Below, piece by piece: positions 11,819 through 12,754 of a stretch of 36,463 nucleotides of DNA (the stretch's first letter is position 1; every line of letters begins with the position of its first letter). The stretch lies in contig JAHJGX010000195.1 in assembly GCA_018824205.1 (NCBI GenBank), positions 1 to 36,463 on the forward strand, written 5' to 3'. The translations under genes and the position numbers were made by a program. Below the pieces are notes generated by a model. That model made no database searches and was not told the DNA's origin. It was given only the letters and a program-made list of their open reading frames with translations. This DNA is from a bacterium. Lineage in GTDB: Bacteria > Fidelibacterota > UBA2242.

Positions 11819-11829
11819 GATAAATCTTG

Positions 11830-11884
11830 GCGGAGAGAGAGGGATTCCTCCAAAGGAGTTCCTATGGAAGAACCCCCATCCCGA
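11830..11884 (-). repeat. Second copy of the tRNA-Ser 3' end, interrupted by 22 bp
   Basis: Positions 11830-11847 match tRNA positions 12148-12165 exactly (18 bp), and 11870-11884 match 12166-12180 at 14 of 15. Together they are a 33-bp direct repeat of the tRNA-Ser T-arm and acceptor 3' strand. The match is broken at 11848-11869 by 22 bp made of two tiny hairpins, CTCC-AAA-GGAG and TTCC-TAT-GGAA, placed exactly within the T-loop between TTC and GAA (tRNA strand). The repeat lies 9 bp beyond the GIY-YIG stop codon, so the nuclease gene is bracketed by tRNA-end repeats, as islands inserted at tRNA genes are bracketed by att sites. Confidence 0.85.
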
Positions 11885-11893
11885 ATTAGTTTA

Positions 11894-12145
11894 CTATAAC
11901 TCTAATTCTTTGAGGTAATTTCGCAACCAAATGTTACCTTCTCCCCTCTTTAAATAATATTCTCTCTGTTGTGCTTTAGATTTTGTTGAATAATCTTCTG
12001 TATATATGACTGAATAAGGTTTATGAGCTTTTGTTGATCGGACTTTACCATAGTTGTGTTGAATCAACCGAGATGAGATATCTTTTGTATGACCGATATA
12101 ATGATAGTTATCGACTCGGCTTTTTAATACATAAACCTGATACAT
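11894..12145 (-). CDS. GIY-YIG nuclease-family protein, 83 aa
   Basis: This is a compact single-domain GIY-YIG protein of the UPF0213/YhbQ size class. It has YQVYVLKSRVDNYHYIGHT at the N-terminus (the first motif half is VYVL instead of GIY, the second is YIG at residues 16-18). Arg26 (SSRLIQHN) and Glu62 (QREYYLK) match the conserved catalytic arginine and metal-binding glutamate of the superfamily. I chose the ATG at 12145-12143. The frame extends upstream only through the tRNA-Ser gene, which would be spurious coding. The ATG is just 3 nt after the tRNA 3' end and has no Shine-Dalgarno. The gene is bracketed by the tRNA 3' end and its duplicate at 11830-11884. In this family some members are DNA-repair-like or uncharacterised and others are homing-type endonucleases. 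A tRNA-targeting role here is inference. Confidence 0.85.
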   Translation of the reverse strand: MYQVYVLKSRVDNYHYIGHTKDISSRLIQHNYGKVRSTKAHKPYSVIYTEDYSTKSKAQQREYYLKRGEGNIWLRNYLKELEL

Positions 12146-12148
12146 TTG

Positions 12149-12235
12149 CGGAGAGAGAGGGATTCGAACCCCCGTCCCGACACGTCGGGAAACGACTTTC
12201 GAGGCCGCCGCATTCAACCGCTCTGCCATCTCTCC
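12149..12235 (-). tRNA. tRNA-Ser (anticodon CGA)
   Basis: This 87-nt class II tRNA has acceptor arms GGAGAGA and TCTCTCC, a D-arm with GGCAGAGCGGTTGAATGC, and an anticodon loop CTCGAAA giving anticodon CGA (reads UCG). A long variable arm with a CCCGAC/GTCGGG stem and a T-arm with the loop TTCGAAT complete it. The long variable arm and G73 identify serine. CCA is not encoded: the bases after G73 are CAA. It lies 33 bp after tadA on the same strand and is immediately followed by the GIY-YIG gene, so all three may be one transcript. Confidence 0.95.
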
Positions 12236-12268: not shown

Positions 12269-12754
12269 TCAATAATCAAGATCACTTTTAGGGGTGCGGA
12301 TAGTGTTAAAAAATGAAGTCAGAATGGATTGACATTTATCTGCTTCTACCCCACCTTTTACTATTGTCTTATGATTTAACAAATTCATATCACACAGATT
12401 ATCGACCGATCCGCACATGCCCGCCTGGGAATCATAGGCGCCAAAAACCAGCCTCGGAATACGGGCATTTAATACAGCACCGGCACACATAGCACAAGGT
12501 TCAAGTGTTACATAAAGTGTGCAGTCATCCAGACGCCAGGAATTAAGTGTGGATGCTGCTGAAGTAATCGCAATAATTTCCGCATGGGCAGTTGGATCAT
12601 TGAGACTCTCTCTCATATTATGCCCCCTGCCGACTATCTGGTTGTTGTGGATAATAACAGCGCCGACGGGGATTTCTTTCTTTTCAAACGCTTTCTCGGC
12701 TTCTTTAAAAGCAAGATTGATCCAGTATTCATCGTTATGTGGTAAAATATTCAT
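12269..12754 (-). CDS. tadA: tRNA-specific adenosine deaminase TadA
   Basis: This 161-aa cytidine-deaminase-fold enzyme converts the wobble adenosine-34 of tRNA-Arg(ACG) to inosine. Motifs are clear: TAHAEI with zinc ligand His57 and catalytic Glu59, and LEPCAMCAGA with zinc ligands Cys87 and Cys90. The N-terminal EIPVGAVI and the C-terminal helix LTSFFNTIR fit TadA rather than a guanine or cytosine deaminase. Length is normal. The gene stands upstream of tRNA-Ser and diverges from the symporter gene at 12934 across 179 bp. No strong SD precedes the start. Confidence 0.95.
   Translation of the reverse strand: MNILPHNDEYWINLAFKEAEKAFEKKEIPVGAVIIHNNQIVGRGHNMRESLNDPTAHAEIIAITSAASTLNSWRLDDCTLYVTLEPCAMCAGAVLNARIPRLVFGAYDSQAGMCGSVDNLCDMNLLNHKTIVKGGVEADKCQSILTSFFNTIRTPKSDLDY

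Follow-up and report, generated by a model that had tools for sequence, protein, structure and literature searches.

What does the gene for a small nuclease do between a tRNA gene and a second copy of that tRNA's own end? The question is raised by a locus in the window, the whole stretch of 36,463 nucleotides of bacterial DNA analysed here, in which a tRNA-Ser(CGA) gene is followed by a GIY-YIG nuclease gene and then by an interrupted duplicate of the tRNA 3' end. The explanation that we regard as likely is a homing-type chromosomal element, intron-less and with a single gene, which lives inside the tRNA gene and whose GIY-YIG protein would cut DNA.

Layout of the tRNA-Ser(CGA) locus

All features of the locus lie on the minus strand. 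The functional tRNA-Ser(CGA) gene (12148..12235; detected by ARAGORN and by Rfam RF00005 with 55.5 bits) has no encoded CCA, and the part running from its T-loop to its end, GAATCCCTCTCTCTCCGC, forms the left direct repeat (12148..12165) in the repeat alignment. The ATG of the 83-aa GIY-YIG gene (11894..12145) stands two bases past the tRNA 3' end, and its stop codon 9 bp ahead of the tRNA-end copy. This copy consists of TCGGGATGGGGGTTC, corresponding to the 5' half of the T-arm with one mismatch (11870..11884), a 22-bp insert (11848..11869), and then GAATCCCTCTCTCTCCGC again (11830..11847), the right direct repeat, which is identical to the functional tRNA at 18 of 18 positions. The insert falls exactly in the T-loop, at TTC^GA, and reads as a double hairpin, TTCC-ATA-GGAA CTCC-TTT-GGAG. 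The tRNA-end repeats are 318 bp apart. Upstream of the tRNA lies tadA (12269..12754), a conserved neighbour that provides an anchor for the orthologous site. The earlier note on this DNA had given the layout of tRNA gene, 83-codon nuclease gene and 33-bp tRNA-end copy (32 positions matching) exactly, including the insert and both spacings.

The tRNA-end repeat scores 24.9, whereas the best of 500 shuffles reached 15.0, and none of 31 other tRNA genes of the source genome has a similar repeat (up to 3 mismatches, within 900 bp downstream). A chance repeat was ruled out on these two grounds. The displaced copy reads on as CCGCCA, with a CCA (11828..11830) encoded in this copy only, whereas the functional tRNA reads CCGC-AA-ATG. 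The CCGCCA ending also occurs in the relatives G007, G010, and G014, which have neither the GIY-YIG gene nor the repeat there. A CCA confined to the displaced copy, together with a functional copy joined to the ATG, is consistent with an original end that was displaced and a rebuilt one fused to the nuclease gene, although the encoded CCA varies among relatives.

The putative element would span 318 bp (11848..12165), with borders placed from the repeat alignment and from the T-loop junction of a filled and empty pair of loci (L039 and L259, below). It would comprise the 3' part of the tRNA from the T-loop, the GIY-YIG gene, the T-arm copy, and the hairpin insert, and the GIY-YIG gene is its only gene-like ORF, with neither a tyrosine nor a serine integrase present in it. 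Like integrase-borne islands at tRNA 3' ends, the insert is flanked by tRNA-end direct repeats and the tRNA appears to stay functional; unlike them, it has no integrase and the GIY-YIG ORF is its sole gene. The site-specific insertion at a tRNA gene that had been proposed for this locus is borne out in so far as the site lies inside the tRNA gene, but the point of insertion is the T-loop and not the tRNA end, and therefore the element rebuilds the tRNA 3' part. The sequences show that the element supplies or duplicates that part, which keeps the tRNA functional, that its nuclease gene begins directly behind the rebuilt tRNA, and that the original 3' end lies displaced downstream with a hairpin in its T-loop.

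Occupied and empty sites

Related genomes provide alleles with and without such a segment. At tRNA-Met, genome G014 (L039) carries a segment that is absent from the same-genus G010 (L259), whose locus is continuous. The alignment of the two breaks at the T-loop, and homology between the right copy and the empty site begins at GAATCC. The repeat in L039 is a 55-bp direct repeat that starts at the T-loop, takes in the terminator, and reaches the ATG of the GIY-YIG gene, which here begins behind the tRNA terminator and not directly behind the tRNA; its two copies are identical, and a carried and a duplicated tRNA end look alike at this locus. A second case is found at tRNA-Pro, which is filled in G013 and plain in G002. 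At the window's own tadA-linked site, G002 (L057) is empty, G013 has a GIY-YIG remnant, G012 has a GIY-YIG gene of another family, and in G001 the tRNA end is split by a hairpin and the GIY-YIG gene is absent. Present and absent alleles at a fixed site, as in homing elements, are thus seen both in L039 against L259 and in the empty L057. The earlier note had taken an empty site lacking the repeat to speak against the proposal; such sites were found (L057, L259), but they are what insertion predicts.

The tRNA-Ser(CGA) genes of G001 and G002 (L055 and L057) have a tRNA body only 74-75% identical to that of the window, despite the shared genus and against 82-86% protein identity for tadA, which suggests replacement of the tRNA gene in these genomes.

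The occupied and empty sites bear on a reading of the nuclease gene as one resident in the host, such as a gene for a UPF0213- or SLX1-type repair nuclease, that makes use of tRNA promoters, with the tRNA-end copies as ordinary tandem duplications. The solved structures nearest to the window protein are indeed those of UPF0213 (1zg2, 1ywl) and SLX1 proteins, and the position of the ATG, immediately after the tRNA, points to expression through tRNA processing. These nucleases share the GIY-YIG domain with the window protein, but they have no known tie to tRNA genes, and presence or absence at orthologous sites, the many different tRNAs and the tmRNA involved, tandem arrays, and truncated or stop-bearing copies make a resident host gene quite improbable.

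Recurrence of the arrangement across the phylum

The window protein belongs to the GIY-YIG family (PF01541, E=3.3e-14) and retains the catalytic Tyr, Arg, and Glu; Y16, G18, R26, H30, and E62 are invariant among 22 relatives. It is a bare catalytic domain without a DNA-binding module. In most close pairs of GIY-YIG genes dN/dS lies between 0.14 and 0.53, with the exception of the nearly identical pair L012/L099 (dN/dS 1.97, resting on few changes), and comparison of the window protein with L012 gives pS 0.87 and pN 0.18. These values indicate purifying selection. Viral contigs yielded no close relative of the window protein, and the GIY proteins in 16 phage records are only distant ones (below 60% identity), none of them pointing to a close relationship with phage SegB.

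Homologues are present in 40 of 61 Neomarinimicrobiota genomes, mostly draft assemblies; a scan of genome contigs with the single protein as query gave no more than two loci. Adjacency was assessed for the 82 small GIY-YIG ORFs in the 61 genomes that have at least 300 bp of flank on each side. A tRNA or tmRNA lies on the same strand within 250 bp upstream of 48 of these, compared with none upstream on the opposite strand, four downstream on the same strand, and one downstream on the opposite strand. Since there are only about 43 tRNA genes in the 3.9 Mb source genome, this upstream excess is far beyond chance. The partners include tRNA genes for Ser, Pro, Asp, Asn, Met, Glu, Gly, Ala, Arg, and Val, as well as tmRNA, and a later search added Leu. 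In the source genome, one GIY-YIG clade occurs at tRNA-Ser with the CGA, TGA, and GGA anticodons, the GGA copy having a stop codon and lying at a contig end. About a third of the small GIY-YIG genes have no tRNA nearby, and a recognizable displaced end was not seen at many of the tRNA-adjacent ones (L015, L025, L040, L109).

On the protein tree the isotype label changes 20 times, while 300 label shuffles gave 34.7 changes on average and never fewer than 30; GIY-YIG clades therefore track tRNA isotype. Such a tight tie, together with the altered T- or anticodon loops of displaced copies, might suggest a protein that acts on tRNA itself, an RNase with a defence or toxin-like role for which the neighbouring tRNA and the hairpin pieces would be protected or decoy RNA. 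The direct repeats at the DNA level and the empty sites record a history of insertion, the family matches DNA nucleases, and the displaced pieces lack their 5' halves, so that an RNase of this kind is the least probable of the explanations considered.

Before further loci were fetched, tRNA adjacency and a T-loop-interrupted tRNA end were set as the prediction. A new search of 245 genomes of the phylum gave nine new loci, and all nine have a T-loop-interrupted tRNA end beside the GIY-YIG gene; an intact tRNA adjoins the gene in eight, the ninth (L273) being at a contig edge. Over all loci, 82 GIY-YIG loci with a tRNA near yielded 28 displaced ends, in a count that includes tandem repeats more than once. 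With few exceptions the displaced end is broken by a hairpin, most often precisely in the T-loop (TTC^GA). Automatic classing gave 13 clean T-loop inserts, one with a 3-nt gap, 11 that are unclassifiable, and three with an intact T-loop. In several of the 11, a hairpin is visible in place of the T-loop, and two of the three intact cases have an anticodon-arm hairpin when read by eye. The search for other tRNA genes followed by a GIY-YIG gene and a repeat of the tRNA end, which the earlier note had suggested, thus found the arrangement at many tRNA and tmRNA genes. Its idea of a minimal, one-gene GIY-YIG element at a tRNA gene, lacking an integrase, is well supported by the filled and empty pair, this recurrence, the isotype clades, and the signature of purifying selection.

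An assembly artefact was rejected as a general explanation, since the single-contig genome G036 has tRNA-linked copies and arrays too. In that genome, L110 (G036:C1:2679670-2681988) has four GIY copies in a 692-bp tandem array with tRNA-Asp-like pieces. Tandem arrays of displaced tRNA-Asp and tRNA-Val ends lie beside GIY-YIG genes in L128 and L107, each end having a hairpin that replaces the T-arm or the anticodon arm. In the tmRNA-linked genes (L029, L037, L126, L130, L131, L133, L147, L158), the leader, about 110-180 nt long, contains GTAG..GAAGC palindromes that recur, and is possibly a structured RNA.

Hairpins, mechanism, and known systems

The 22-bp split of the repeat, present as first described, is not incidental: it is a structured double hairpin, and independent elements repeatedly have inserts of 20-24 nt at this T-loop position. 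Seven of them, in Ser, Pro, and Met genes, share a pattern of two hairpins, each with a 4-bp stem and a 3-nt loop. Four of the pairs show changes on both sides, and pairing is found in 93% of cells, compared with 30-70% in slid controls. This covariation is supportive rather than conclusive for the double hairpin, coming as it does from seven related sequences. Folding as a single long hairpin fits worse (88.6% against 93.3% of cells paired, and 6 against 10 both-side changes). In other lineages the insert is one longer hairpin, and in Asn and Val cases the hairpin is in the anticodon arm and not the T-loop. Displaced copies are often otherwise identical to the functional copy (L012, L016, L100), which indicates that hairpin and duplication are equally young.

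Similar double hairpins are dispersed in the source genome, with 20 matches (up to 2 mismatches) against 2 in the control. At L163 (G000:C273:20564-20659), an extra full-length tRNA-Met copy has a 22-nt double hairpin in its T-loop and no GIY-YIG gene beside it. At L264 (G000:C241:7238-7327), a displaced 3' end with a hairpin ahead of it (CCCGGCGTAG..GAAGCCGGG) lies about 90 bp past tRNA-Ser(GCT), again with no GIY-YIG gene; such hairpin-split ends occur in G001 and G008 as well. A pattern search for T-loop inserts returned mostly unrelated sequence, and a single match (C37) was used. Because they are dispersed, and because one sits in the T-loop of an extra tRNA-Met copy, the double hairpins may be a repeat of their own that is used or attracted by the element.

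These same observations, namely the dispersed hairpins, the tRNA-Met copy on C273, and the split ends without a nuclease gene in G001, G008, and at tRNA-Ser(GCT) of the source genome, would also suit a protein that is only a passenger. The element would then move while recombination by the host among tRNA pieces, or another enzyme acting in trans, makes the tandem tRNA pieces, and the hairpins would be an independent dispersed repeat inserting in hairpin loops. We consider a passenger role unlikely, given that GIY-YIG clades track tRNA isotype, that 31 source-genome tRNAs without a GIY-YIG gene are also without a displaced end, and that kept catalytic residues and low dN/dS would not be expected of it.

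For the favoured homing-type element, the nearest parallel is found in fungal mitochondria. The mORFs of Allomyces atp6 and of Glomus atp6, atp9, cox2, and nad3 are intron-less endonuclease ORFs (GIY-YIG in atp9) that bring a replacement 3' end of the host gene and push the native 3' end downstream (PMC3630166). The loci analysed here share the replacement 3' end with the native end downstream, and in this respect the element resembles mORFs more than it does integrase islands. In contrast to mORFs, which occupy protein genes of mitochondrial DNA, the elements described here lie in tRNA and tmRNA genes on the bacterial chromosomes of Neomarinimicrobiota, with a nuclease of 83 aa and with a displaced copy that contains a hairpin. 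Organelle genomes also contain double-hairpin or repetitive hairpin elements, in which two adjacent short hairpins are dispersed; unlike these, the present hairpins are bacterial and lie in the T- and anticodon loops of displaced tRNA copies.

The second parallel is SegB of T-even phages, a free-standing GIY-YIG endonuclease tied to tRNA genes. According to the SegB report (PMC13096335), the phage T6 enzyme cuts within these genes, the motif RAWTSGAAC describes 23 of 83 sites, and tRNA-segB units amplify in tandem with a 718-bp repeat; no isotype preference is reported there, and the sections consulted name no T-loop and describe no carried tRNA 3' end. The reverse complement of the motif given there is GTTCSAWTY, and the window's T-loop, GTTCGAATC, fits it. 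We would therefore read the SegB motif as the T-loop consensus, a reading that is ours and not that of the SegB authors. The two systems have in common a GIY-YIG enzyme at tRNA genes, a motif readable as the T-loop, and tandem units, whereas SegB is phage-borne, with no isotype preference reported, and the present elements are chromosomal with clades that follow isotype.

Cutting and repair are proposed because the anatomy matches mORFs and the target fits SegB. The GIY-YIG protein would cut tRNA genes of its own isotype that lack the element, in their T-loop, and repair of the break by recombination with a copy that bears the element would insert it. The hairpin would remove a second T-loop target from the displaced copy and may stabilize the duplication, and tandem arrays could arise by repeated cutting and recombination between tRNA pieces. 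The T-loop is broken in the displaced copy and intact in the rebuilt tRNA, which means that insertion does not destroy the presumed target; the element has no evident self-immunity, and this counts against the scheme. Possible answers are that cutting is weak or limited to certain alleles, that recognition extends further than the T-loop, or that cutting depends on structure, as it does in SLX1 relatives. The lack of a DNA-binding module, the GIY-YIG genes without a displaced end or a tRNA, the anticodon-arm hairpins, and the draft state of the genomes also count against it.

A broader proposal, which we put forward tentatively and with less confidence than the homing-type element itself, is that these loci represent a large class of autonomous bacterial elements, unreported so far and about 320-370 bp long, with each lineage tied to one isotype (or tmRNA) and one tRNA loop, expressed by tRNA processing, and with the leftover tRNA copy disarmed by a structured hairpin in the cut loop. 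No report of tRNA-linked GIY-YIG elements in bacteria was found in the open-access literature. If the explanation is correct, the mORF strategy of carrying the 3' end of the host gene would extend from mitochondria to bacterial chromosomes, and elements among the smallest one-gene mobile elements would be targeting the most conserved genes in the cell, in connection with the recently reported cutting of tRNA genes by phage SegB. The explanation would also account for the many 'GIY-YIG family protein' genes that lie next to tRNAs, and would open to experiment how a catalytic domain of 70-100 aa chooses an isotype and what lets a host survive when a nuclease targets one of its essential tRNA genes.

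A GIY-YIG homologue also lies beside tRNA-Leu and hairpin-bearing tRNA-Leu pieces in L098, on a contig that reads TGA as sense; Gracilibacteria read TGA as sense.
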